The notes beneath the pieces are model-generated. The model was not told the DNA's origin. It made no database searches and saw only the letters and a program-made list of their open reading frames with translations. This document shows positions 26,139-42,483 of a stretch of 64,000 nucleotides of DNA, one piece after another; the first letter of the stretch is position 1; every line of letters begins with the position of its first letter. This stretch comes from Jeotgalibaca porci (lineage in GTDB: Bacteria; Bacillota; Bacilli; Lactobacillales; Aerococcaceae). Both the position numbers and the translations under genes were made by a program. The DNA lies in contig NZ_CP049889.1 in the NCBI RefSeq assembly GCF_011299095.1, positions 1,778,501-1,842,500 on the forward strand, read 5' to 3'.

Positions 26139-27716
26139 CTAAACCGCGCCACACTCTATCTGGCGCTTTCGGTACTCGGTAGGGGATACCCCTTCTTTTT
26201 TCTTGAACAAATAACTGAAGTAGTTGGAATCGTTGTAACCAACCTCAAGGGTAATGGTAGTAAGCTTGTCATCCGTCGTTACCAGTAAGTTCTTGGCATA
26301 ATTTATCCTTTGTTCGGTCAGATATTCGATAAAGGTTCTACCCAATGCCTGTGAAAAAATGGTCGAGAAATGCGAAGGGCTAAGGGCCACATTTTCCGAT
26401 ACAGTTTTTAATGTCATATCGGGGTCAGCAAAATGATTATTGATATACGTCAGAGCTTGTTGAATCAGGCTACGGTATTTAATCATGGTTGGATGAATTT
26501 CAACCTCCAACAAATAGGTTAAAGCATTCTTCAAATACTTCTGGTAGCGATCCAGCGACTTCGCGATGTCGCCCATTTCCTGAGAATCATTAATGCGATA
26601 AATGGGTGACTCTTTGTGAGCCTGCTTCTTCACTAGCAATGCTTCAATCTCCATGAGAACGAAAAAGCGGAACATGCGTTGACGCTCGAGTGTATCCAGA
26701 TCAAGCCCGGTTAGAGAATAGATAAAAGGATCGATGTCTTTAATCGTTACATCAGCAATCTTATCAGCTAGATCAATCTTAAACGGATTGGAAGGGGACA
26801 ATTCACCTTCTTTAATGTTATCAACGAAACTAATGATTTTCTCCGATCTGATTTGACCATACGTCCCGACCAATTGCTTTGCCATTTGGTAACTATGCGG
26901 AATCTCACTGATGCGGTCTACAATCGGGCCAATTCCCACCGCTAAATCGGACGAATCAATATCCAATTCATGAATGAGTGTATTAGCCGTTTGATAACAT
27001 TTTTCCAATAACAAGTCGTAATCTGTTTCGAAAATCAAAATTTTAATAAACCGTGAGGAAATACTCGAAAATAAAACGCCGCTGTCCTTTCCGAAAAAGG
27101 CCTTAAGTTTCTCACTAAAATGGAAATAATCTTCAAATTTTTTATTGTAGTGGTTTGTGGCCAAGAGAACAGACATCTTTTTGCCCGCCAATGCTATTTG
27201 AAATTGTTCCGCTTCTTTAATGACTTCACTCATTCTTAAATCACCTTGGAAGAGGCAATTCAAGAAATGGTTTTTGTGAACTTCATGCGTAAGCAGTTCT
27301 TCATTCTCATCTTTAACCGAGAACGTATTCTTCTGAGCATCCAAAGTCGTGATAATAGTGTGCAACGCATTCTCTAGTTCCTTGGGTTTAATCGGCTTTA
27401 ATAAATAATCGTCCGCCTGAAGTTGAATGGCAGATTTCGTATAGGAAAAGTCATCGAATCCGGAAATAAATAAAATGCGCATCCAAGGGTATATTTTCTT
27501 TGCCTCATGTGCCAATTCAATTCCATCCATAAACGGCATTTTAATATCCGTTAATAAAATATCCGGTTTAATATCAATAATGGAAGCTAACGCTAATTCA
27601 CCATCTCCAGCTTCTCCCGCAAACGTAATCGGGTAGCGCTCTGCCAGCGTCATCACTTCGTTTCGTAAGTTTTCCCGAATCAACGGTTCATCTTCAACTA
27701 TAAATACTTTATACAT
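26139..27716 (-). CDS. YesN-type response regulator (AraC output), xylose-linked
   Basis: A 525-aa regulator. The receiver domain spans about residues 1-125 with the phospho-acceptor D57 (LLTDIKMP) and acidic E8/D9; a long middle domain follows, then two AraC helix-turn-helix motifs (about residues 420-520: MTLKTVSENVALSPSHFSTIF, YNDSNYFSYLFKK). It pairs with the YesM-like kinase, whose stop codon overlaps its ATG by 1 nt. By position next to xylFGH it most likely activates that operon, as the known YesN/LytS/XylFII system of clostridia does. Confidence 0.9.
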   Translation of the reverse strand: MYKVFIVEDEPLIRENLRNEVMTLAERYPITFAGEAGDGELALASIIDIKPDILLTDIKMPFMDGIELAHEAKKIYPWMRILFISGFDDFSYTKSAIQLQADDYLLKPIKPKELENALHTIITTLDAQKNTFSVKDENEELLTHEVHKNHFLNCLFQGDLRMSEVIKEAEQFQIALAGKKMSVLLATNHYNKKFEDYFHFSEKLKAFFGKDSGVLFSSISSRFIKILIFETDYDLLLEKCYQTANTLIHELDIDSSDLAVGIGPIVDRISEIPHSYQMAKQLVGTYGQIRSEKIISFVDNIKEGELSPSNPFKIDLADKIADVTIKDIDPFIYSLTGLDLDTLERQRMFRFFVLMEIEALLVKKQAHKESPIYRINDSQEMGDIAKSLDRYQKYLKNALTYLLEVEIHPTMIKYRSLIQQALTYINNHFADPDMTLKTVSENVALSPSHFSTIFSQALGRTFIEYLTEQRINYAKNLLVTTDDKLTTITLEVGYNDSNYFSYLFKKKEGVSPTEYRKRQIECGAV

Positions 27717-29161
27717 TAATTTATTCCACCTTCTTGGTCTAATTCATGGAGCGGAACGCGAATGGTTACGGTCGTTCCGTGATTAAGCTGACTGTCAAAA
27801 GTAAGACGCGCTTTTTCTCCGTAATAAAGTAAGAGTCGCTTGTTTACATTATATAACCCATATCCCTCTCTAAAGTCAGTCTCTACACCCTTATTCAATT
27901 CGGCTCTAATTTCAGCTAACTTCTCTGGCGGTACACCTTTACCATTATCCGCAATTGAAAAACAAAGCATATCATCCTCTTGATAGGCAGTGACTGTGAT
28001 TAAGCCTACGCGACGCACCGCTTTGGTCCCATGGTAGACGGCGTTCTCAACAACCGGCTGAAGTAGCATCTTCAAGATGGTGTACGAATGAAGCTCTTCG
28101 CTAACAGAAATATCATAAGTTAACATATCCCCATACCGCATCTTCAAAATAAGTAAATAATCAGAAATGTGTTTGATTTCCTTTTCTAAGGTAATCCAAT
28201 CCCTTCCTTTGCTCAAAGAAATACGGAAGAAATCGGAAAGAGAATAGGTCATTTTTTGAACGGCAGCCATATCACCTTGTTCAGCGAGCGCTAGAATAGC
28301 ATCCAGACTGTTATATATGAAGTGCGGAGTAATCTGGGCTTGTAAAACGCGCATTTCACTTTGAGCGAGATGGTATTGTTTCTTAGCATTTTCTTCCAGT
28401 AGGACGTTTAGGTTTTCAGCCATCCCATTCATCTGGTTGCTGAGAGCGGCCAATTCCGTAATCGGCGGAATTGAGACGCGATAATTTAAATTACCTTTGG
28501 AAATTTGATCCGACATTTCCATTAATTCGTTCAATGGCATTTCGACGTTTTTAGTAAGGGAATGCTTGATTCGTTTCGATAAAATGAAGGTAGCCAGAAG
28601 GACAAAGCCTTCAATAATGGACAATACAATAACAGAATTCATAACTTCCGAACCTGTAGAAGATGCAAAATTGATTTCAACTTCAATGAATTCCTGCAAA
28701 ATATCAAGAACAAGCAAGTTACTGGATTCAACCTGCAGCATCACATTTTCATTTTTAGCCACGGGTTGGTTCATAACGATATTCTCTTTAATCGTTTCGA
28801 CATATGTTTCCATCGAATCAACTGCTTCTAAAGTGAGCATTAGAGTGGCATGTTCCGCCTGACTCTGTGCTTTGTCTGCCATATCGGTGATATCTTCACG
28901 TAAATCAGTAATAATATTTTCCTGACTGAAAACAGCAGGGGTCACTTGGCCATATACCAATCCCCAAACATCCTCAATGACTTGTGTACGAAAAGCAGTT
29001 GAAATCTCGTTGGCGCGATGAATATTATTTACCGCTCGTTGATATGTAAAAAGATGATTCGTATAAATAATGATACTGACTACCAGCGGAATAATAGCTA
29101 GTAAACGCATCCATTTTGTTGATTGGAAAATGAGTTCTCTAATCGTTTTTTTTGTAGTCAT
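27716..29161 (-). CDS. YesM/LytS-type sensor histidine kinase
   Basis: A 481-aa membrane kinase. Two transmembrane segments (about 18-36 and 176-196) enclose an all-helical extracytoplasmic domain of about 140 residues; a HAMP domain follows, then a His_kinase domain with the phospho-histidine H280 (QAQITPHFIYNSLDAIL) and a HATPase with DNGKGV and the glycine-rich EGYGLYNV. It is translated between the binding lipoprotein (12-nt gap) and the response regulator. The extracytoplasmic domain probably contacts the lipoprotein. Confidence 0.92.
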   Translation of the reverse strand: MTTKKTIRELIFQSTKWMRLLAIIPLVVSIIIYTNHLFTYQRAVNNIHRANEISTAFRTQVIEDVWGLVYGQVTPAVFSQENIITDLREDITDMADKAQSQAEHATLMLTLEAVDSMETYVETIKENIVMNQPVAKNENVMLQVESSNLLVLDILQEFIEVEINFASSTGSEVMNSVIVLSIIEGFVLLATFILSKRIKHSLTKNVEMPLNELMEMSDQISKGNLNYRVSIPPITELAALSNQMNGMAENLNVLLEENAKKQYHLAQSEMRVLQAQITPHFIYNSLDAILALAEQGDMAAVQKMTYSLSDFFRISLSKGRDWITLEKEIKHISDYLLILKMRYGDMLTYDISVSEELHSYTILKMLLQPVVENAVYHGTKAVRRVGLITVTAYQEDDMLCFSIADNGKGVPPEKLAEIRAELNKGVETDFREGYGLYNVNKRLLLYYGEKARLTFDSQLNHGTTVTIRVPLHELDQEGGIN

Positions 29162-29173
29162 CGTCTATCCTCG

Positions 29174-30142
29174 TTAATAATTTCTTGTAGGAATCATGCT
29201 TAGGTCACCTTGATCAGAAAAGACAGTTTCCGGAACGTAAATTTCTTTTGGAATCTTACTACCGGATAAATGGCGACTAACGGCATTTACCACATACCAA
29301 CCAACATGTGGATTGCATTCTACTACACAGTTTATAATGCCTTTCTTTAACAAATCTATGGCATCTTTCTGACCATCAATCGAAATAATCACTAGTTCAT
29401 CACTTTTGTCTGGTGCCAGTTCTTTTAAAGCTTCGAGTGCTCCTAAAGTCATTTCGTCATTGTGGCTATAAAGCACATCAATAGCATTGAAAGTTCCATC
29501 TTGAAGGGCCGTTCGAATTACTTCTCTTCCTTTCGAACGGATAAAGTCACCTTGCAACGTTTGCGTCACCTGGATGCGGTTATCGCGTCCGATGGTTTCC
29601 AGAAAACCTTCGTGACGTAAAGTAGTGGAGGCCGCGTTTTCGAGACCTTTTAATTCTAATACGTTAATAGTAGATTCCGAAGATTGGGAAGCATAGTTAC
29701 TTAAATACAGGCCAGCGCGACTGCCTTCTGCCTTGAAACTAGGTCCGACATGAGTAATATATAAGTCCGAATCGCTCGTTTGGATATTGCGGTCTACAAT
29801 GATGACGGGAATACCGGCATCTTTTGCCTCGGTTAACACAGTATCCCATCCACTTTCGACAAGTGGTGCTAAAATAATCAAATCGACTTTATAAGCAATA
29901 AAGCGGCGTATATCTTGAATTTGACGTTCTTGATTTAGGAAACCATTGCGATAAAGCACTTGATAGTCTTCTTTTTCCAATTCAGTGATAATTGAATCCG
30001 TATGCGCTTTACGCCAGTTACTTTCAGTTCCCGATTGCGAAAAACCCACGACCGGAGAAAGGGCATCTTCATCGCGATCGATGGCATGAGTACATCCCGT
30101 TAAAATGAATAAAGTGAGCAGGTAAAATAAAAACTTTTTCAT
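29174..30142 (-). CDS. Sugar-binding lipoprotein, sensory component (XylFII-like)
   Basis: A 322-aa periplasmic-binding-protein (type 1, LacI-like) lipoprotein with lipobox LTGC (C17). Motifs such as DLIILAPLVESGWDTVLTEA, PVIIVDRN and DVLYSHNDEMTLGAL are typical of galactofuranose/ribose/xylose binding proteins. Because it is first in an operon with kinase and regulator and not with a permease, it is probably the sugar sensor of a three-component system. Xylose as ligand is inferred from the divergent xylFGH. Confidence 0.85.
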   Translation of the reverse strand: MKKFLFYLLTLFILTGCTHAIDRDEDALSPVVGFSQSGTESNWRKAHTDSIITELEKEDYQVLYRNGFLNQERQIQDIRRFIAYKVDLIILAPLVESGWDTVLTEAKDAGIPVIIVDRNIQTSDSDLYITHVGPSFKAEGSRAGLYLSNYASQSSESTINVLELKGLENAASTTLRHEGFLETIGRDNRIQVTQTLQGDFIRSKGREVIRTALQDGTFNAIDVLYSHNDEMTLGALEALKELAPDKSDELVIISIDGQKDAIDLLKKGIINCVVECNPHVGWYVVNAVSRHLSGSKIPKEIYVPETVFSDQGDLSMIPTRNY

Positions 30143-30184
30143 AGGTGTGTCCTTTCGAATACTTCCATAAAATTATCATTAGAT

Positions 30185-30353
30185 TTTAAAACGCTTACCA
30201 AATAATTTTACCATATTATAAGATAATTCGTTCCCTAACTAATATAATCCAAGGGAAATCGAAAGAAAACCAAGATTAGTTTATCATTTCCATAAGAATT
30301 TATAGATAATCAATAACAAATCAAATGAAATCGTTTTCAGTAAGCGTTATATT
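30185..30353. promoter_or_regulatory. Divergent control region with cre site (xylF)
   Basis: The 242-base gap between the sensor lipoprotein and xylF contains a full 15/15 match to the cre consensus at 30325-30339 (ATGAAATCGTTTTCA), just upstream of a possible -10 TATATT (30348-30353). A weaker cre-like GGTAAGCGTTTTAA lies on the minus strand at about 30186-30199. CcpA repression of xylF is expected. The YesN target sequence itself cannot be pinned down. Confidence 0.7.
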
Positions 30354-30384
30354 TAGTTTAGAAAAACCGAGGAGGAATTATTAG

Positions 30385-31476
30385 ATGAATAGAATGGTGA
30401 AAAAAGGTATCGTTTCAGCTCTCTCTTTACTGTCATGTTTAGCTCTTACGGCTTGTGGTGGCGAAAGTGGCGATTCAGAAGCAAAAGGATACGTCGGAAT
30501 TGCGATGCCAACGAAATCGGCTGAACGTTGGATTGCGGATGGAAATAACATGGTTGATGAACTTGAGAAGTTAGGTTATAAAACAGACTTGCAATACGGT
30601 GAAGATAAAGTTGAGAACCAAGTAGCTCAAATCGAAAACATGATTACTAAAGGTGTTGACACACTGGTTATTGCATCGATTGACGGTTCGGCTTTAACAG
30701 ATGTTCTAGAAAAAGCGGATGCAGCAGATATTGATGTTATTGCTTATGACCGTTTGTTAATGAACTCAGACTTTGTTGATTACTATGCAACATTCGATAA
30801 CTTTGCAGTAGGTGTCTTACAGGCATCCTATATTGAAGAAGCTCTTAAATTGAAAGATGGCGAAGGGCCATTCAATATCGAATTGTTTGGTGGTTCACCA
30901 GATGATAACAATGCCTTGATCAACTATAACGGTGTCATGTCTGTATTCCAACCGTATATTGATAGTAAGCAACTGGTTGTTCCTTCAAATCAAATGAACT
31001 TTAACCAAATTGCAACGTTACGTTGGGATGGCTCTACGGCTCAGTCTCGTATGGATAACTTGCTAAGTGCAAACTATACAGACAAACAGTTGGATGCTAT
31101 TTTGTCTCCCTATGATCCAATCAGTTTAGGCATTATTTCTTCATTGAAAGGTGTCGGATACGGAACAAGCGAATTACCGTTACCAGTTATTACTGGTCAA
31201 GATGCAACAGTAGCAGGGGTGAAATCCATTATTGCTGGGGAACAAACACAAACAATTTTCAAAGATACGCGTATTTTAGCTAAAAATACAATCGAAATGA
31301 TTGAAGCAATTCACAACGGTGAAGAAGTACCAGTTAACGATACAGAAACCTATGATAACGGCGTGAAAGTTGTTCCAACATACTTATCAACACCTATCTC
31401 GGTTGATAAAGACAACTTTGAAGCAGAACTGATTGATACAGATTATTATACAAAAGACGATTTATCAATCAACTAA
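30385..31476 (+). CDS. xylF: D-xylose ABC transporter substrate-binding lipoprotein
   Basis: A 363-aa binding lipoprotein; signal peptide with lipobox LTAC (C24). Binding-protein segments include [53 protein letters not shown] and the C-terminal [15 protein letters not shown]; this set is characteristic of the XylF/ChvE multiple-sugar group. GAGGAGG lies upstream of the ATG. It is the first gene of xylFGH plus an EIIB-like gene. Confidence 0.9.
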
Positions 31477-31482
31477 CAATAT

Positions 31483-31525
31483 AAAGCCGGGAATAGTTCT
31501 CTCGAAACTATTTCTGGCTTTTTCT
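31483..31525 (+). terminator. Partial terminator between xylF and xylG
   Basis: A long imperfect stem beginning AAAGCC (31483) and closing at GGCTT (31516-31520) is followed by TTTTTC. It sits 7 nt after the xylF stop and 20 nt before the xylG start. It is likely to lower transcription of the membrane genes relative to the binding protein, or to protect the xylF 3' end. Confidence 0.75.
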
Positions 31526-31543
31526 TTAAAGAGGAGTGAGAGA

Positions 31544-33076
31544 ATGGCAGATTACATTTTAGAAATGAAAAATATCGTTAAAGAATTCTCTGGTATACGG
31601 GCTTTAGATAACGTGAACTTAAAAATAGAACGCGGTGAGATTCACGCGTTGTGTGGTGAAAACGGAGCAGGTAAATCAACCCTCATGAATGTCTTAAGCG
31701 GACTCTATCCATTTGGTAGTTATTCAGGCGAGATTATTTATGAAGGTGACGTTGCTCAATTTAAGAAACTGAAAGACAGCGAAGAAAAAGGTATTGTTAT
31801 TATTCATCAAGAATTGGCTTTGAGCCCTTATTTATCTATTAAAGAAAACTTGTTCCTCGGTAATGAACAGGCTAAAAGAGGCATCATCGACTGGAATTTG
31901 ACAGAGAAAAAGACAGAGAACCTTTTAAAGACAGTAGGATTACGCGTTAATCCGAATACGTTGGTTTCACAAATTGGCGTAGGGCATCAACAATTGGTCG
32001 AAATAGCGAAAGCATTTGCTAAGAATGTTCAACTTCTGATTTTGGATGAACCGACGGCAGCTTTGAACGAAGAGGAAAGTGAAAACCTCTTGGAATTGAT
32101 GCGTGAGTTCAAAAAACAAGGGATTACGTCGATTATTATTTCTCATAAACTGAATGAAATTGTGGATATTTCCGATAAAATCACAATTCTTCGTGATGGT
32201 AAAACGATTGAGACACTCGAAAAAGAAGAGATTTCGGAAGAACGTATTATTCGTGGCATGGTAGGACGTGACTTGACGAACCGTTACCCTGAAAGAAAAG
32301 CGAATATCGGTGACGTGTACTTCGAGGTAAAAGATTGGAATGTCCACCATCCGATTGATTCCAATCGCGTTGTGAACAAGAACTTAAATCTGACCATCCG
32401 CAGAGGCGAAATCATTGGGATTGCTGGTTTAATGGGAGCGGGTCGTACGGAATTTGCGATGAGCGTGTTTGGTCGTTCTTATGGTAGCCAGATTACCGGA
32501 AAAGTCTACAAAGACGGTCAAGAAATTTCCGTTAAAGACGTCCCAACAGCCATTAAAAATGGACTTGCCTACGTGTCGGAAGACCGTAAGTCATTGGGGT
32601 TAAATCTTATCATGGATGTGCGGGAAAATACGACGCTTGCGAGTTTAGAGAAAGTAAGTAAAAACGGCATTCTGGACAAAGAAAAAGAAATCACCATTGC
32701 AGAAGAGTACCGTCGCAAGATGCGTACGAAGACGAGCTCAATTTCGCAAAATATTGCGAGTTTGAGTGGTGGAAATCAACAAAAAGTTGTTCTATCAAAA
32801 TGGCTTGCGACCGAACCAGAAATTTTATTCTTGGATGAACCCACTCGTGGAATCGATGTCGGTGCCAAGTATGAAATTTACACCATCATTGAAGAGATGG
32901 CTGCGGAAGGCAAATGTATTTGTATCATTTCATCAGAATTACCAGAAATATTAGGGATGTGCGATCGCATCTATACGATGAATGACGGACATTTTACAGG
33001 TGAAGTGATGCGAGAAGATGCAGATCAAGAAAGCTTGATGAATCTAATGACAACTGAAAAAGAGAGGGTCATGTAA
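31544..33076 (+). CDS. xylG: D-xylose ABC transporter ATP-binding protein
   Basis: A 510-aa tandem ABC ATPase of the XylG/MglA/RbsA type. The first domain has an intact Walker [10 protein letters not shown]; the second has a degenerate GLMGAGRTE but the signature [15 protein letters not shown] and Walker [14 protein letters not shown]. The two half-sites are family-typical. ATG 31544 has GAGGAG upstream, and the longer frame from 31433 overlaps xylF. It ends directly before xylH. Confidence 0.92.
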
Positions 33077-34273
33077 ATGGAAAATATTACAAAAGATAGA
33101 AAAGAGAAATTCCAGTTGAGCGAGAAGCTGCTCGATATTTTTAGTAAATATAGTATGATCATTATCCTCGTTGTCTTATTAATTGCGTTTCAATTAATGA
33201 CAGATGGTATTTTCCTCAGACCTCTAAACATTACAAATATTGTTTTGCAAAATAGTCATATTTTGGTATTGGCTGTAGGGATGTTATTGGTTGTTCTATT
33301 GGGGTATGTCGATTTGTCAGTTGGATCGGTAATGGCTTTTGTCGGCGCGATTGCCGGCCTCATGATGGTAAATAACGATATTAGTCCAATTATTGCTGTT
33401 CCGGTTTGTTTGTTAGTCGGTGCTTTAATTGGTGCATGGCAAGGGTTCTGGGTGGCTTATGTCGGTATACCAGCCTTTATCGTGACGTTGGCAGGGTTGT
33501 TGATGTTCCGTGGTTTGACACAAGTTGTTTTAGGTGGACAATCATTGGCACCTTTCCCTAAAGTTTTCCAAAAGATTTCTACTGGTTACTTACCGAACTT
33601 GTTCGGAGGTGATGGGCTGCATATCACGACACTTATCTTAGGTGGTTTGTTGGCAGCCATGATGGTATTTGGACAATGGCGTGCACGCGAGAAACGGAAA
33701 GAAAATAACTTCGAAGTACAATCATTCCCAGTATTCGTGGCATTGGCTATCTTTACAGTTGTGACTGTAATGGTGTTGAGCTTTGTATTCGCATCCTACC
33801 AAGGATTCCCAGTTATCTTGATTATTCTTGCTTTTATTGTCATTTTGTATGGCTTTATTACGAATCAAACGGTTGCAGGACGTCAAATTTATGCAACAGG
33901 TGGGAACCGTAAATCGGCAGAGTTGTCTGGTATTAATACAAAGAAAATTACGTTCTGGGTATTTGTTAACATGAGCTTCCTGGCAGCACTTGCCGGCCTT
34001 ATTCTGGCGGCACGTTTGAATGCTGCAACACCGCAAGCCGGAAACTCATTGGAGTTGGATGCGATGGCTTCCGTATACTTTGGTGGCGCGTCAACTTCTG
34101 GTGGTATTGGTACAGTTGTGGGAGCAATTGTCGGTGGTTTGGTAATGGGTGTATTGAATAACGGTATGTCCATTCTAGGTGTCGGTGTCGACTGGCAACA
34201 AGCAATCAAAGGTTTGATTTTACTACTAGCAGTTGTACTAGATATCTACAACAAGAAGAGAAAAATTTCTTAA
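33077..34273 (+). CDS. xylH: D-xylose ABC transporter permease
   Basis: A 398-aa polytopic permease of the ribose/xylose family, with about ten transmembrane helices. VLLGYVDLSVGSVMAFVGAIAG and LNAATPQAGNSLELDAMASVYFGGASTSGG are family hallmarks. ATG directly follows the xylG stop (0-nt gap), with GAGAGGGTC before it. Confidence 0.92.
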   Translation: MENITKDRKEKFQLSEKLLDIFSKYSMIIILVVLLIAFQLMTDGIFLRPLNITNIVLQNSHILVLAVGMLLVVLLGYVDLSVGSVMAFVGAIAGLMMVNNDISPIIAVPVCLLVGALIGAWQGFWVAYVGIPAFIVTLAGLLMFRGLTQVVLGGQSLAPFPKVFQKISTGYLPNLFGGDGLHITTLILGGLLAAMMVFGQWRAREKRKENNFEVQSFPVFVALAIFTVVTVMVLSFVFASYQGFPVILIILAFIVILYGFITNQTVAGRQIYATGGNRKSAELSGINTKKITFWVFVNMSFLAALAGLILAARLNAATPQAGNSLELDAMASVYFGGASTSGGIGTVVGAIVGGLVMGVLNNGMSILGVGVDWQQAIKGLILLLAVVLDIYNKKRKIS

Positions 34274-34286
34274 AGGTTGTGTTGAA

Positions 34287-34610
34287 ATGACGAGTGAAGA
34301 GACAAAGAAAATATTACTGATTTGTACAGCTGGTATCACAACAGGACTATTAGTTAGAAATGTCCAAGCAGAAGTAGATGCCAAAGGATTAGGACTACAA
34401 ATTTATTCTGCACCGGCTATCATCGCTGAACAAGCGATCCAAACACAGAAAATCGATGGACTTTTAATTGGACCGCAATCCGAATACGAAATTAACCGTC
34501 TAAAAGATTTTCTAAGTTACAAAGCAGTTCCTTATAAATTGATCTCAAGAGAAGCCTACGAAACCTTGGATGGCAAAGCAGTTCTTGATGAGATTATGAA
34601 ACTTATTTAA
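34287..34610 (+). CDS. Orphan PTS EIIB-like protein (lactose/cellobiose family)
   Basis: A 107-aa cytoplasmic protein homologous to the cellobiose/lactose-type EIIB. KILLICTAGITTGLLV holds the phospho-acceptor cysteine C13 (C-x-A-G-x-x-T), and DGLLIGPQSEYEINRLKDFL matches the second EIIB motif. It follows xylH by 13 nt and precedes a terminator, so it is co-transcribed with an ABC importer. No EIIA or EIIC gene lies nearby. It might receive phosphate from a PTS component and act as a regulatory phospho-carrier for xylose uptake; this is inference. Confidence 0.85.
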   Translation: MTSEETKKILLICTAGITTGLLVRNVQAEVDAKGLGLQIYSAPAIIAEQAIQTQKIDGLLIGPQSEYEINRLKDFLSYKAVPYKLISREAYETLDGKAVLDEIMKLI

Positions 34611-34623
34611 TAGAACCTCCGAA

Positions 34624-34657
34624 AAAAGCACATTCCGAAATAATGGAATGTGCTTTT
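34624..34657. terminator. Bidirectional terminator after xylFGH operon
   Basis: A perfect 13-bp stem (34624-34636 with 34645-34657) with an 8-nt loop and A/T tracts on both sides. Confidence 0.9.
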
Positions 34658-34662
34658 ATATT

Positions 34663-35088
34663 TTATTCAGAAACGATTGAATCACGGAAATACTTTATGA
34701 AATAAGTAATAGGCGTGGAAATCCATACAAGCCCCAGTAACAGTTGGCTGACTTGTAAAGTGACGAGCCCATCTTCAATGAGAGGCTGTTTACGATTAAG
34801 AGCAAGCCAGAAATAAGTCAAACCGAGTAATAAGTTTAGTACGTTTACTACTGAAGGCTTTTCTTTTCTATCAAAATGAGAGCCTTGCCACGTATTTCGG
34901 ATATTCATAAACATAATAGGAATCATAATAATAACTAAATACTCGATAAAAGAATCCTGTGCCCATTTGATTTCGCCGATATAAGTAATAAGTTGATTTA
35001 TAAACAATAAAATATTGATTAAATAAAAAGCATAACAACCATTTTTATAACGCAATAAGCGCTGATATTCATCGTATTGTGCAAACAT
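34663..35088 (-). CDS. Small membrane protein paired with XRE regulator
   Basis: A 141-aa protein with about four transmembrane segments (roughly 18-36, 48-62, 82-97, 110-130). The family is not recognised. Its start lies 3 nt after the stop of the upstream XRE gene, a common pairing in Firmicutes where a small Cro/CI repressor controls a polytopic membrane protein. Function unknown. Confidence 0.8.
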   Translation of the reverse strand: MFAQYDEYQRLLRYKNGCYAFYLINILLFINQLITYIGEIKWAQDSFIEYLVIIMIPIMFMNIRNTWQGSHFDRKEKPSVVNVLNLLLGLTYFWLALNRKQPLIEDGLVTLQVSQLLLGLVWISTPITYFIKYFRDSIVSE

Positions 35089-35091
35089 TCC

Positions 35092-35298
35092 TCATCCCTC
35101 CCAAAATAAATCGTTCAGTGTGACGCCGAGCGCTTTACAAATCTTGATACACAAATTGATAGTGGGGTTATAGTCGCCTCGTTCGATGGCGCTAATGGTT
35201 TGGCGCGTCACCTCGACCGCGTCTGCCAATTGTTGCTGTGACATCTCTTTTTCAGTACGAGCGACTTTTAATCGGATATTCTTCGCCATAAATGCCAC
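35092..35298 (-). CDS. XRE-family helix-turn-helix regulator
   Basis: A 68-aa single-domain Cro/CI-type DNA-binding protein: MSQQQLADAVEVTRQTISAIERG is the helix-turn-helix, ending in LGVTLNDLFWE. Probably controls itself and the downstream membrane protein. GAGGTGGC lies upstream of the ATG. Confidence 0.92.
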   Translation of the reverse strand: MAFMAKNIRLKVARTEKEMSQQQLADAVEVTRQTISAIERGDYNPTINLCIKICKALGVTLNDLFWEG

Positions 35299-35436
35299 CT
35301 CGTTTTGTAAGTTATATCTTTCTTTATGTAAAGTATATCTTACATTTAGATCGGTGTAAAGAATAAAATTTGTGAATATGGCATTATTTGAGATAATGGT
35401 TCAGGGCAGAAAGTAAATCCAGGAAGGGCCATTATT

Positions 35437-35751
35437 TTGAAAAGAAAATTGAAACGACTATATAGAAACTACTGGAACATCGCTGTTCCAGTAGTGTTGG
35501 GTTATATCGGCATTACGCCAACCCACTATCATACAGGCAAAAAAGTTTGGAAAAGCAAGCCACTTCGCAAGACCCGAACACGCACAAAGAGATGGATTAG
35601 GAAATATTTGAAGTACGTAGCAGCGGCATTATTGGTTTATTATTTCATAAAAAATCCAGAAGATTTCCAAATCATGACGAATCATTTAGTGAGCGTTTTG
35701 ATGGAAGCATATAATCGCGTTGCTGGATTTATAGTTCAAAATTTAGGTTAG
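35437..35751 (+). CDS. Basic small membrane-associated protein, 104 aa
   Basis: A strongly basic N-terminal half (MKRKLKRLYRNYW...KTRTRTKRWIRKYLK) is followed by one likely transmembrane helix (YVAAALLVYYFI, about residues 68-80). The start is TTG with AGGAAGGG about 10 nt upstream. I do not recognise the family. Coding is supported by a clear ribosome site and a terminator-like hairpin directly after it. Confidence 0.6.
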   Translation: MKRKLKRLYRNYWNIAVPVVLGYIGITPTHYHTGKKVWKSKPLRKTRTRTKRWIRKYLKYVAAALLVYYFIKNPEDFQIMTNHLVSVLMEAYNRVAGFIVQNLG

Positions 35752-35756
35752 CAGGT

Positions 35757-35787
35757 GAAGGGGCTGGGGATGATTTCCAGCTCCTTC
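35757..35787 (+). terminator. Hairpin after the 104-aa gene
   Basis: GAAGGGGCTGG (35757-35767) pairs with CCAGCTCCTTC (35777-35787); the following T-run is weak. Confidence 0.6.
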
Positions 35788-35841
35788 GTTGTTTAAATTA
35801 GTGAGCTGCTATGATTGGTAATTTATTGGTGTTTTAAATGA

Positions 35842-35872
35842 AAATCCTCGGAATCATTCGAGGATTTTTTTG
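35842..35872 (+). terminator. Second terminator in the gap before the MFS gene
   Basis: AAATCCTCG (35842-35850) pairs with CGAGGATTT (35859-35867) and is followed by a run of T. No gene is seen between the two hairpins. Confidence 0.8.
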
Positions 35873-36038
35873 TTTTTTCAGGACTAGAGAAGACTATAAC
35901 GCATTCCTTTGAATCTATAATTTGAAGTTATCGTTCGTATAATATTCTGTTGGTAGTGTAATCAGCTAAACCCGTATAGAATAATGATTGGAACCGCTTT
36001 TACTAGAGTTGGTTAAACATTTTTTAGGAGGAAAGAAA

Positions 36039-37291: not shown

Positions 37292-37323
37292 GATGTTAAA
37301 ATAGAAATGAACTGAAAAATAGT

Positions 37324-37563
37324 TTTACAATCAGTTGGACGGTGTTTTTCCCATTTGAACTCGATGTAAACAGATTTACAATCAGTTGGTGGGCGAATTT
37401 CCCATTCGAACTCGATGTAAATAGTTTTACAATCAGTTGGACGACGAATTTCCCATCCGAACTCGATGTAAACGGCTTTACAATCAGTTGGACGACGAAT
37501 TTCCCATCCGAACTCGATGTAAACAGCTTTAAAATCAGTTGAACGGCGAATTTCCCGTTGAAG
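37324..37563. repeat. Tandem hairpin array D, 4.7 units, period 51 bp
   Basis: Units start at 37324, 37375, 37426, 37477 and 37528. At each junction GATGTAAA pairs with TTTACAATC across a 4-nt loop that varies (CAGA, TAGT, CGGC, CAGC) while the stem is kept, and AACT/AGTT extends it with a bulge; only the last unit has TTTAAA. The spacer AATTTCCCATCCGAA also recurs. It fills most of the 416-base gene-free gap. Because 51 is divisible by 3, long shadow ORFs run through it, which I reject as genes. Confidence 0.85.
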
Positions 37564-38231: not shown

Positions 38232-38282
38232 AATAAAGCGCGGAGTAGAATGCAGTCACTGCATTCTATTCTGCGCTTATTC
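38232..38282. terminator. Bidirectional terminator between GNAT and xylR
   Basis: A very long near-perfect stem (AATAAAGCGC...TGCAG with CTGCA...GCGCTTATT, 38232-38282) with a 3-nt loop. Confidence 0.85.
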
Positions 38283-39454
38283 TAGTTTTCTTTGTAAGTC
38301 TTTTGATGCAACGTTAAATCAGGAATATTGAAGAAATGTTGCAAGTTCAAAATCGTGCCGCCCAGAAGGATTGCTTGGTGGTTGAGGGAAGATTCTACGA
38401 TTTGTACATCTTTCGAGAAACGATTCGTAATGCGTTCTTTAATGGCATTTAGAAGGGTAGGGAGATAATCAAACAGTTTACTATTTAAGATAATGACTTC
38501 CGGATCCAAATTCATAATTAAATTATTAATACCAAAAGACAAGTAATCAACCGCTGTATCGACGAGCTCCAATACGGCTGGTTCTGCGTTCTTATAGCTT
38601 TCATTCAAATCTTTATAAGTCGCGCCAGGCGAATCCGTTAGCACACGGTAATCTTTTAATAGAACTGCTGCGGAACAATACTGTTCCATGCATCCTTTAT
38701 TTCCGCACGGGCAGGGACGGCCGTGTGGTTGCAAAATCATGTGTCCGATTTCTCCACCTTGCCCTTTAGTACCATGATACAATTCACCGTCAATTAAGAT
38801 TCCGGCACCTATACCATTATGGATACTGACACTAACCATATTTTTCAAGGGCGTTGTAAATCCTTTCTCGCCTAAAACACTTAGGTTCGCTTCGTTTTCG
38901 ATATAAACAGGCGTATTCCATTTCGTTTCGATGATTTCAGCAAGATTAATTTCGTGTAGATCTGAATAGGTCGTAAAGATAATGTTGTTATTATAGACAA
39001 TCCCATGAATCGCAATGGTAATACCAATTAATTGGAACTTTTTATGTTCATAGTAGGGCTGCATTGCTTTAACAATTTTATTGATTTCTGAAACTGTGTT
39101 TTCTTTTGTCAGACGGTTTCCTTCATTTTCAATGTAATGGATACTTTCACCATTTAAGGTGGTAAGTAATCCATAAATATAGTCGTATCCGATATCGATA
39201 CTCAAAGAGCAACCGACATCGTAATTCATTTGTAGCTGAATAGGTTTTCTACCACCGGAAGCTGTACTATTTCCAATTCCGATTTCATTGATTAATTGTT
39301 CATCAATAAATTTTTTAACGATTTCTGATGTTGAAGCTTTATTTAATCCCGTGAGTTGCGAAATAGCGGCACGCGAAATTTCAGGGTTGTGGATAATAGT
39401 GGATAGGATCAAGGTTTCATTGTGTTCCCTTAAGGTCATCTTGTTGGCAATCAT
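38282..39454 (-). CDS. xylR: XylR, ROK-family xylose repressor
   Basis: A 390-aa regulator: N-terminal winged helix (about residues 1-75; ISRAAISQLTGLNKASTSEIV), then a ROK domain with SIDIGYDYIYGLLTTLNGE and the zinc motif CPCGNKGCMEQYC. It is divergent from xylA, whose promoter carries a XylR-type box. The ATG at 39454 is chosen for the AAGGTGGGG ribosome site; the frame is open 12 codons further. A paralogue with near-identical helix-turn-helix is at 49452. Confidence 0.92.
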   Translation of the reverse strand: MIANKMTLREHNETLILSTIIHNPEISRAAISQLTGLNKASTSEIVKKFIDEQLINEIGIGNSTASGGRKPIQLQMNYDVGCSLSIDIGYDYIYGLLTTLNGESIHYIENEGNRLTKENTVSEINKIVKAMQPYYEHKKFQLIGITIAIHGIVYNNNIIFTTYSDLHEINLAEIIETKWNTPVYIENEANLSVLGEKGFTTPLKNMVSVSIHNGIGAGILIDGELYHGTKGQGGEIGHMILQPHGRPCPCGNKGCMEQYCSAAVLLKDYRVLTDSPGATYKDLNESYKNAEPAVLELVDTAVDYLSFGINNLIMNLDPEVIILNSKLFDYLPTLLNAIKERITNRFSKDVQIVESSLNHQAILLGGTILNLQHFFNIPDLTLHQKTYKEN

Positions 39455-39591
39455 AGTTACCCCACCTTTCATGTATATGTTCTGTATCACTATTGTACAA
39501 CAAAGACGGGTTAAATAAAGATTATTATTACAAGTGTTTCGCGGTTTCTTTTAAACAATTATTTATTTAGAAGAAAGTTGTAAAAACAATA

Positions 39592-39656
39592 ATGAAAACG
39601 CTTGACAACATTTTATATTTGTCTTAAACTACAGTTAGTTAATTATACAAACAAAC
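39592..39656 (+). promoter_or_regulatory. xylA promoter with XylR box and cre-like site
   Basis: TTGACA (39602-39607) and TAAACT (39625-39630) are 17 nt apart. A 23-bp XylR-type box at 39634-39656 (GTTAGTTA..., ending CAAACAAAC) lies directly downstream of the -10. A cre-like ATGAAAACGCTTGAC (13 of 15 matches) at 39592-39606 overlaps the -35. The same box sequence recurs at 50755 and 58539. Confidence 0.85.
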
Positions 39657-39672
39657 GAAGAGGAGAATGAAC

Positions 39673-40983
39673 ATGGCTTATTTCCCAACTATTGAAAAGA
39701 TTAAATACGAAGGTACAGAAACGAATAATCCTTTGGCATTCCGTCATTACAACCCAGAAGAAATTGTCTTAGGTAAAACAATGAAGGAACACATGCGTTT
39801 TGCAATTGCTTATTGGCATACATTTGTTAACGAAGGAAACGACCCATTTGGTCAAGGCGTTAATGAACGGACATGGTTAACAGATGATCCGATGGAAACT
39901 GCTAAAAACCGTGTCGAAGCAGCTTTCGAGTTTTTTGAAAAATTAGGGGTAGAGTATTTCTGTTTCCACGATATGGACGTTGCACCTTTCGGTAATTCTC
40001 TAGAAGAATTCTTCAAAAATTTGGATGAAATCGTAGATTTAATCGAGAAGAAAATGGAAGAAACAGGCATCAAATTACTTTGGAACACGGCTGACCGTCA
40101 TGCAAACCCTATTTACGTAAATGGTGCGGCATCTTCAAATAATGCAGATGTCTATGCAGTATCTGCTGCACAAGTTAAAAAAGGGATTGATATTAGCAAG
40201 CGTCTAGGCGGAAAGAACTTTGTATTCTGGGGTGGACGTGAAGGGTACGAAACACTATTAAATACAGACATGGCTTTCGAAGAAGAAAATATCGCACGTC
40301 TATACAAAATGGCGATTGCGTATTCTAACGAAATTGGTCACGAAGAGTTAACATTCCTATTGGAGCCTAAACCAAAAGAGCCAATGAAACACCAATACGA
40401 CTTTGATGCAGCGACATCTATGGCATTCTTGCAAAAATATGACTTAACGGATCGCTTCAAATTGAACTTGGAAGCTAACCATGCGACATTGGCAGGTCAT
40501 ACTTTCGAGCACGAAATGAATGTGGCACGTAACTACAATGCACTGGGTTCATTGGATGCGAACCAAGGCGATATGTTACTAGGCTGGGATACAGATGAAT
40601 TCCCGACTGACTTATATTCTGTAACGTTAGCAATGTATGAAGTTTTGGAAAATGGCGGAATCGCACCAGGTGGTATCAACTTTGATGCGAAAGTGCGTCG
40701 TACTTCATTCGAAATGGAAGACTTATTCTTGGCACATATCGCAGGTATGGATACATTCGCACGTGGCTTGAAAGCAGCTGCGCGGTTGAAAGAAGATAAA
40801 TTCTTCGATAACTTGAAAGCAGATCGTTATGCAAGCTACCAAGAAGGTATTGGTAAAGATATCATCAGCGACAAGACAGATCTTAAATCATTGACTGAAT
40901 ATGCATTGTCTAACAAAGAAGTTAAAAATAAATCTGGACATATTGAATTAGTGAAAGCAAAACTGAACGAATACATTTACTAG
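39673..40983 (+). CDS. xylA: Xylose isomerase
   Basis: A 436-aa type-II xylose isomerase converting D-xylose to D-xylulose, cytoplasmic and metal dependent. The active-site histidine is in [13 protein letters not shown], and metal-binding segments [31 protein letters not shown] and DEFPTDLYS are clear. ATG 39673 has AGAGGAG 8 nt upstream; the ATG at 39667 is too close. It is followed by xylB after 12 nt. Confidence 0.97.
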
Positions 40984-40995
40984 GAGGCGAACCCT

Positions 40996-42483
40996 ATGCG
41001 TTACGTACTCGGGTTAGATTTAGGGACGAGCTCATTGAAAGGTCTCTTAGTGAATCAGGCGGGAGAAGTGGTTTATACCACTTCTTCTGACTATCCACTG
41101 ATTCACCCGCAATCAGGATACAGCGAACAAAACCCACATGAGTGGTACCGTGCAGCTGTTGAAGTGATGGCGAATATTGTTGAAACCGTTCCAGATGCAA
41201 AAGAAGGATTGGAAGCAATCAGCTTTTCAGGACAAATGCACAGTTTGGTTCTATTGGACGAAAACGATGCGGTCTTACGCAATGCGATTCTTTGGAATGA
41301 TGTGCGAACAACAGCACAATGTGAAAAAATTAAAGAAACACTGGGCGAGGAACTTATTTCTATCACTCAGAACAAAGCGCTTGAAGGTTTCACCTTACCA
41401 AAGATTCTTTGGGTGAAAGAACATGAGCCAGCTATTTTTGAAAAAGCGCGTCAATTTTTATTGCCAAAGGATTACTTAGGTTTTCGTTTGACGGGTTCGA
41501 AGCAAATGGAATATTCCGATGCTGCTGGAACATTATTGCTAGACTTAAAAAATAAACAGTGGAGTGAAAGAGTTTTGGCGGCCTTTGATTTGCCAAAAAC
41601 GATTTGCCCACCGCTTGTAGAGTCGAGCGATAAGATTGGAACGCTATCAGAAGAGTTGACGAAAGAGTTTGGTTTTACTCACACAATTAATGTCTACGCT
41701 GGTGGTGCGGATAACGCGTCTGCAGCATTAGGCGCAGGAATCATTTCACCTGATATTGGCATGGCAAGTATTGGTACTTCAGGCGTATTCTTAGCATACG
41801 AAGAAGCAGGCAAAGAGTACCAAGGTGACTTGCATTATTTCTACCATGTTTTGAGAGATTCATTCTATTCAATGGGCGTAACGTTGGCAGCTGGTCACAG
41901 CTTGTCATGGTTTAAGAATACATTTGCTCCGAATGAAGATTTTGACGCGTTGTTGAAAGATATCGGAACCATTCCGGCAGGGTCTGAGGGCTTATTGTTT
42001 ATGCCATATATTTCTGGTGAGCGCACGCCATATACGGACAGTAAAATCCGTGGCAGCTTCCTAGGAATGGATCAAGGGCATACACGAGATCACTTTGCGC
42101 GTGCTGTCTTGGAAGGCATTACTTTTTCTTTGAAAGATTCTCAAAAATTGATGGAAGAACGTGCTGGCAAGAACTTCAGAAAAATTGTTTCTGTTGGTGG
42201 CGGAGCAAAGAATCCTGATTGGTTACAAATGCAGGCGGATATTTTTGATGCCACGATTGTAACTTTGACAACTGAACAAGGACCTGGAATGGGAGCTGTC
42301 ATGCTTGCTGCAATGGGTCAAGGTTGGTTTGACAGTGTTGAAGAACTAGTAGCAACTTTTGTCAAAGAAGCAAAAACCTATGAGCCCGTTAAAGAACAGG
42401 TAGAAGCATACGAACATATTTACGCGATTTATCGCGATGGATATGGTGCAACAAAAGACATCAGTCACGCGTTACAAAAATAA
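40996..42483 (+). CDS. xylB: Xylulokinase
   Basis: A 495-aa FGGY-family kinase that phosphorylates D-xylulose. LGLDLGTSSLKGLLV (phosphate 1), SFSGQMHSLVLLD, WNDVRTTAQ and VSVGGGAKNPDWLQMQADIF are typical of XylB. TAGGAGGCG precedes the ATG. It is co-transcribed with xylA and followed by a terminator. Confidence 0.97.
   Translation: MRYVLGLDLGTSSLKGLLVNQAGEVVYTTSSDYPLIHPQSGYSEQNPHEWYRAAVEVMANIVETVPDAKEGLEAISFSGQMHSLVLLDENDAVLRNAILWNDVRTTAQCEKIKETLGEELISITQNKALEGFTLPKILWVKEHEPAIFEKARQFLLPKDYLGFRLTGSKQMEYSDAAGTLLLDLKNKQWSERVLAAFDLPKTICPPLVESSDKIGTLSEELTKEFGFTHTINVYAGGADNASAALGAGIISPDIGMASIGTSGVFLAYEEAGKEYQGDLHYFYHVLRDSFYSMGVTLAAGHSLSWFKNTFAPNEDFDALLKDIGTIPAGSEGLLFMPYISGERTPYTDSKIRGSFLGMDQGHTRDHFARAVLEGITFSLKDSQKLMEERAGKNFRKIVSVGGGAKNPDWLQMQADIFDATIVTLTTEQGPGMGAVMLAAMGQGWFDSVEELVATFVKEAKTYEPVKEQVEAYEHIYAIYRDGYGATKDISHALQK

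Follow-up and report, generated by a model that had tools for sequence, protein, structure and literature searches.

A stand-alone EIIB gene in a ChvE-GguA-GguB importer operon of Lactobacillales, a candidate link between the cellobiose-type PTS and ABC-type monosaccharide uptake

The importer operon and its last gene

The window, that is, the whole stretch of 64,000 nucleotides from Jeotgalibaca porci analyzed in this study, carries on its forward strand an ABC importer operon composed of chvE, encoding the sugar-binding protein (30385–31476; NCBIfam NF040907, 535.6 bits, cut-off 460), gguA (mmsA), encoding an ATPase of 510 aa (31544–33076; NF040905, 846.9 bits, cut-off 810), and gguB (mmsB), encoding the permease (33077–34273; NF040906, 543.3 bits, cut-off 450). 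All three subunits score above the equivalog cut-offs of the ChvE-GguA-GguB (ChvE-MmsA-MmsB) importer, whereas the XylFGH cut-offs were missed (xylF TIGR02634, 201.9 bits against 389.55; xylG TIGR02633, 568.1 bits against 723.65). Therefore, the permease gene, called xylH in a first-pass annotation that had described an ABC xylose importer, should read gguB (mmsB), and the system is better named ChvE-GguA-GguB (MmsAB, multiple monosaccharide) than XylFGH. Unlike the standard importer of this type, the operon contains an additional EIIB gene, an arrangement that, among the genomes sampled, occurs in Lactobacillales alone. The ORF listing of the window places this last gene, a Lac/Cel-type orphan EIIB, at 34287–34610 (forward strand), with an ATG start and a product of 107 aa. 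It begins 13 nt behind the end of gguB (34273) and is followed by a terminator-like hairpin (34624–34657, forward strand) with a 14-pair stem and a T-rich tail that closes the operon; the spacing and the terminator, both noticed in the first-pass annotation, were thus confirmed. The codon of the phospho-acceptor Cys13, TGT, lies at 34323–34325 on the same strand, within the loop CTAGITTGLLV.

Concerning expression signals, 11 terminator-like sites were found in a 7-kb region including the operon where 5.2 were expected, while the 23 promoter-like sites in 29000–36000 are about as many as chance predicts (20.8). One strong terminator-like hairpin lies between chvE and gguA (31483–31521) and possibly sets the expression of the binding protein above that of gguAB and the EIIB gene. 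A cre-like site (CcpA/HPr-Ser-P) ahead of chvE (30325–30339, forward strand) matches WTGNAANCGNWNNCW, a cre consensus. This match is weak by itself, as the window contains 3 matches against 1.74 expected and 23 of 100 shuffles reach 3. Strict cre matches ahead of chvE occur in 8 of 18 promoter regions, a weak count as well, with region borders set by hand and the expectation computed for the window only. The divergent promoter region also contains the inverted pair CGCTTAC (30192–30198) and GTAAGCG (30340–30346), the latter immediately next to the cre-like site. Of the 18 promoter regions examined, 7 contain one or the other heptamer at least once, and the pair could be operator sites of the YesN-type regulator.

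That regulator belongs to a putative three-component sensor encoded divergently on the reverse strand, comprising a sugar-binding protein (29174–30142; PF13407, best solved relatives of the YtfQ type), a sensor histidine kinase with HAMP, His_kinase and HATPase_c domains (27716–29161), and a YesN-type response regulator with receiver and AraC HTH domains (26139–27716). XylFII-LytS-YesN is a xylose sensing system, and like it, the binding protein, HAMP kinase and YesN-type regulator of the window are encoded together beside a pentose-type ABC importer. The binding protein of the window, however, scores 198 bits with YtfQ and 33 bits with PDB 5xsj, a XylFII entry. Since the galactofuranose-type YtfQ is a nearer relative than the xylose-sensor entries, its ligand may not be xylose. 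XylFII-LytS is cited in PMC10384115. On the other side of the operon, a ROK-family regulator (38282–39490) stands beside xylAB, the regulator, xylA and xylB together spanning 38282–42483. Between an MFS-like and an acetyltransferase-like gene there is a tandem array (37317–37556) of 4.7 copies of a 51-bp unit with 88% matches, through which open reading frames run on both strands.

The only Pfam match of the last gene product is PF02302 (PTS_IIB; 38.9 bits, cut-off 23.6). NCBIfam TIGR00853 (pts-lac) scores 55.6 bits on it, half of the cut-off of 110, and matches all 17 members of its clade at E < 0.001. With a profile of these 17 members, six cellobiose/chitobiose EIIB sequences of solved structure were matched at E values from 1.5e-15 to 2.6e-8, and a galactitol EIIB only at E 0.07. 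Foldseek searches with the AlphaFold (AF2) model, of pLDDT 87.5, gave eight matches at E ≤ 0.001, all Lac/Cel/Chb EIIBs with a TM of about 0.8. Because of these Pfam, profile and Foldseek matches on the one hand and the half-cut-off TIGR00853 score on the other, the protein is an EIIB by its predicted fold and motif, yet an outlier of the family. It has in common with Lac/Cel EIIBs of the ChbB/CelA/LicB type (PDB 1iib, 1h9c, 2wy2 and 4mge) the fold, the Cys loop, the GPQ motif and the length; it differs from them in forming its own clade, in clade-specific residues surrounding the active site, and in sitting in an ABC operon that holds no EIIA or EIIC partner.

Linkage of the EIIB gene to gguB across genomes

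To see how far the arrangement extends, 295 Lactobacillales genomes were searched. The results revealed 17 matches to the EIIB clade at 136 bits or more, the next best match reaching 75 bits. These 17 matches belong to 16 genomes. In every one of the 16, a copy is the next gene after gguB in the same orientation, and the 16 span four family labels (f1, f2, f3 and f8). No more than 22 of the 295 genomes have gguB over the cut-off, 6 of them without a clade EIIB; three more genomes, whose GguB-like matches reach E ≤ 1e-60 but score too low for the cut-off, are not counted among the 22. Since all 16 clade-bearing genomes show the linkage and gguB is itself so infrequent, the association lies far above chance. 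A pattern scan across 84,980 species genomes, a method limited to close relatives, gave 12 loci, namely seven of Trichococcus, four of Enterococcus and one in a record titled Sedimentibacter. All 12 have the EIIB gene behind gguB and sensor genes in divergent orientation, with the response regulator covered only in part by the stretch retrieved; the scanned loci overlap the 16 order genomes, so that the two sets are not independent. The linkage between the EIIB gene and the importer is thus not accidental and is conserved across genera and families, as the first-pass annotation had suggested looking for in related operons. The EIIB start lies close behind gguB, and in most loci an RBS-like sequence was recognized by eye.

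A class-wide sample of 329 genomes, some of them Lactobacillales, contains 27 with gguB over the cut-off, which are the genome of the window and 26 from outside the order; no clade EIIB was detected at E 1e-24 in the 328 other genomes, including these 26. Likewise, no EIIB above 82 bits appeared in a phylum sample of 329 genomes except that of the window genome itself. Of 17 next-best EIIBs, none is located by gguAB, and for nine of them an EIIA, EIIC or CelR can be recognized at a distance of up to about 1.5 kb. Because 6 of the 22 gguB genomes within the order and all 26 gguB-bearing Bacilli outside it do without the EIIB, the protein must be dispensable for transport. In the six EIIB-less genomes of the order, tblastn for EIIB remnants within 3 kb behind gguB gave only chance-level matches (E ≥ 0.8). 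Only one of six species in the genus of the window, the window's own, carries the gene. A plasmid collection contributed 15 matching records, five of them from Enterococcus raffinosus (69% identity), and in one E. raffinosus record the gene following chvE-mmsA-mmsB is annotated as 'hypothetical protein'. No description of an EIIB gene in a ChvE-GguAB operon was found in the open-licence literature, judged largely on the openings of abstracts.

Some loci depart from the common arrangement. In G220, an intact EIIB gene stands beside a gguB that appears truncated at its 5′ end (the longest ORF having a start codon measures 328 aa instead of 398), and chvE and gguA are missing from this locus (L082, 7995–9404), with no gguA over the cut-off. 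G260 carries a second clade EIIB (L076, 16628–16957), 59% identical to that of the window, directly after xylB in the order xylA-xylB-EIIB. Near the EIIB gene of G211, whose assembly measures 5.7 Mb with 5% contamination, there is an EIIC-like gene 34% identical to the cellobiose EIIC of the window genome, located behind an oppositely oriented regulator. The E. raffinosus plasmid carries genes for a fructose-type EIIC and EIIA from about 1.3 kb downstream of the EIIB gene, behind a hydrolase gene on the opposite strand.

Evolution and conserved residues of the EIIB clade

Phylogenetic analysis separated the EIIB clade (19 rows) from 11 of the collected canonical EIIBs with support of 100/99. 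Branching within the clade resembles that of the GguB tree, which was built from 32 rows and includes seven of the 26 over-cut-off gguB Bacilli plus one under the cut-off (G303). The distances of EIIB and GguB are closely correlated (Mantel r 0.94, 18 rows, 0 of 5000 permutations), a value that needs no physical contact between the proteins because shared ancestry or joint transfer suffices. In both trees, the window copy groups with Enterococcus-type rows and not with Trichococcus. This placement, together with the presence of the gene in a single species of the genus, suggests that the whole importer-EIIB module was transferred as a unit. Among 13 sequence pairs, dN/dS was 0.04–0.10 in the six with an unsaturated dS (below 0.6), none of which includes the window gene; of the remaining pairs, two have an undefined dS and five a dS above 1. 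The window EIIB compared with that of G144 gave a dN/dS of 0.13 at a dS of 1.6. Judged from these substitution ratios, the EIIB clade is under purifying selection.

Alignment of the clade with canonical EIIBs confirmed the phospho-acceptor assigned earlier, as all 19 clade members and all 11 canonical EIIBs compared have Cys13. K7, L11, A15, G16, L21, V23, GPQ62–64, L76, I86 and Y91 are common to both groups at 85–90% or more, with A15, G16 and GPQ kept in at least 90%. All 17 clade members agree, on the other hand, in I17, T18, G20, Y40-S41-A42-P43, I45, E48, E68, R71 and L72, and at each of these positions the commonest canonical residue differs; the canonical counterparts of I17, T18 and G20 are M, S and S. 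In the secondary structure of the model, the Cys loop, the YSAP stretch and GPQ each come after the end of a strand, that is, at the edge of the active site, which points to a re-tooled active-site face. The simplest reading of these patterns would be that the phospho-chemistry was retained and the partner changed.

A proposed regulatory role and its alternatives

No EIIA or EIIC gene is located near the window EIIB. The genome's only PF02255 Lac-type EIIA (C1:1499447) adjoins a canonical EIIB, and its only Lac/Cel-type EIIC is encoded there too (C1:1.499–1.505 Mb), about 0.3 Mb from the window (C1:1.7785–1.8425 Mb), so that the earlier description of the gene as an orphan holds. All nine PF02378 matches in the genome were typed; eight fit other PTS families best, three of which (L133, L135 and L136) match the beta-glucoside model under its cut-off, and the ninth is this cellobiose-type EIIC. 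A distance of about 3.5 kb separates it and a GH1-like gene from the canonical EIIA-EIIB pair, which is on the opposite strand. The first-pass annotation had named use of the orphan by EIIA/EIIC partners for another sugar as one of two observations that would refute its idea of a regulator; the sole Lac/Cel EIIC has that canonical pair close by. As to the phosphate donor, a Lac-type EIIA is encoded in all 16 EIIB-bearing genomes and all 22 gguB genomes, but since 268 of the 295 order genomes carry one anyway, its presence is uninformative and this co-occurrence was dropped as evidence. Cross-talk between non-cognate EIIA and EIIB proteins within one PTS family is reported for the glucose-family transporters of Bacillus subtilis (PMC6148471).

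The partner of the EIIB was sought among its constant neighbors. Sensor genes occur within about 8 kb at 9 of 14 fetched EIIB loci and are absent from the other 5 (the count covers 14 loci and not 16, G234 being left out). Six transporter loci without the EIIB include at least two with a sensor, three with none, and one (G205) whose 6 kb are too short to tell. The sensor and the EIIB therefore dissociate in both directions, and a link to the YesN-type sensor, which the first-pass annotation had envisaged, was rejected as the main role of the EIIB. Genes downstream of the EIIB vary as well. L083 resembles an arabinose operon in that genes for a GntR/LacI-type regulator, an FGGY kinase and a class II aldolase come next; at L086, a similar regulator ORF follows, with other genes beyond (L084 and L085 were left out of this comparison). 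The EIIB thus accompanies the transporter with or without the sensor, in a xylose setting in the window and an arabinose-like setting at L083. Because the sensor and downstream genes differ among loci, the importer is its constant companion.

Starting from the observed linkage, the intact phospho-acceptor, the predicted fold, the selection and the lack of a local EIIC, we tentatively propose, at somewhat less than an even chance, that this stand-alone EIIB is a regulator dedicated to the ChvE-GguAB pentose/monosaccharide importer, which it would gate according to the state of the cellobiose-type PTS. From the gene layout, the EIIB would be co-expressed with the importer. A Lac/Cel-type EIIA, charged via EI and HPr, would then phosphorylate Cys13; having no EIIC of its own, the EIIB would pass no phosphate to sugar, and its phosphorylation would mirror how much sugar flows through the cellobiose-type PTS. 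Either the phosphorylated or the unphosphorylated form might dock on the importer, most likely on the ATPase GguA, and set its activity. Such a scheme would amount to inducer exclusion by an EIIB instead of an EIIA. In enteric bacteria, EIIA-Glc acts on MalK in inducer exclusion, and the proposed logic is the same, a PTS protein gating an ABC importer by phosphorylation; the differences are that an EIIB would take the place of the EIIA and that it is encoded in the importer operon. The wider claim, that in Lactobacillales an EIIB left sugar phosphorylation to become a phospho-cysteine regulatory subunit through which the cellobiose-type PTS branch directly gates an ABC importer, is somewhat less probable still. 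The arrangements in G220, G260, G211 and E. raffinosus, as well as the gguB genomes lacking the EIIB, count against a dedicated regulator.

The way in which Lactobacillales choose between non-PTS pentoses and PTS sugars, cellobiose among them, is relevant to the fermentation of lignocellulose, and a conserved EIIB encoded together with a pentose importer offers a concrete candidate, consisting of one gene, for signalling from the PTS to an ABC transporter. If the proposal is true, the EIIB may tell a pentose-type ABC importer whether a competing sugar is already entering, and an importer gated in this way could bear on the co-use of cellobiose and xylose reported in lactic-acid bacteria. According to PMC7671544, Enterococcus mundtii QU25 consumes cellobiose and xylose together, its xylose operon then being repressed in part only, about 7-fold below the xylose-alone level, and the authors postulate an unidentified PRD-containing, cellobiose-responsive transcriptional activator, which concerns transcription and not transport.

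Several alternatives to a dedicated regulator of the importer were weighed. The EIIB might act on transcription, one phospho-form binding a regulator of pentose genes, with a ROK-type XylR, the YesN/kinase pair and AraR as candidates. For the transcription regulators Mlc and MtlR, control by EIIB domains is reported, with the same phosphorylation-dependent action on a non-PTS partner as proposed here, but those EIIBs belong to a working PTS permease whereas the window EIIB is an orphan; a 2013 review on regulators under EIIB control is cited in PMC6271610. Possible targets would be the ROK regulator beside xylAB, the GntR/LacI-type regulator of L083 and the similar ORF of L086, and the second EIIB of G260 follows xylB; we nevertheless consider this unlikely, since the nearby regulator varies by locus, the sensor is dissociable in both directions and only the transporter is always there. 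It is quite unlikely that the protein serves as a spare catalytic EIIB for a Lac/Cel-type EIIC elsewhere, by which pentose-grown cells would take up beta-glucosides. The intact catalytic loop, the position of the cellobiose EIIC gene outside any operon shared with the canonical EIIA-EIIB genes, and the EIIC-like gene of G211 would fit such a role, but the proximity of a canonical EIIB to that EIIC, the low TIGR00853 score, the wide separation of the clade from canonical EIIBs and its different active-site surround argue against it.

Having lost PTS phosphorylation, the EIIB could have kept its fold as an accessory subunit with a structural or metabolite-sensing function in the importer, in line with the clade-specific I17, T18 and G20 in the phosphate-binding loop; this appears distinctly improbable, as the complete conservation of Cys13 and the near-complete conservation of A15, G16 and GPQ are hard to explain without phospho-chemistry. 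Finally, the gene might be a passenger, inserted once in an ancestor and spread by transfer with no functional coupling to the importer, which would agree with its patchy occurrence in the genus and the apparent transfer of the module as a unit. We regard this as very improbable, given that the EIIB is under purifying selection and has been kept directly after gguB across four family labels.
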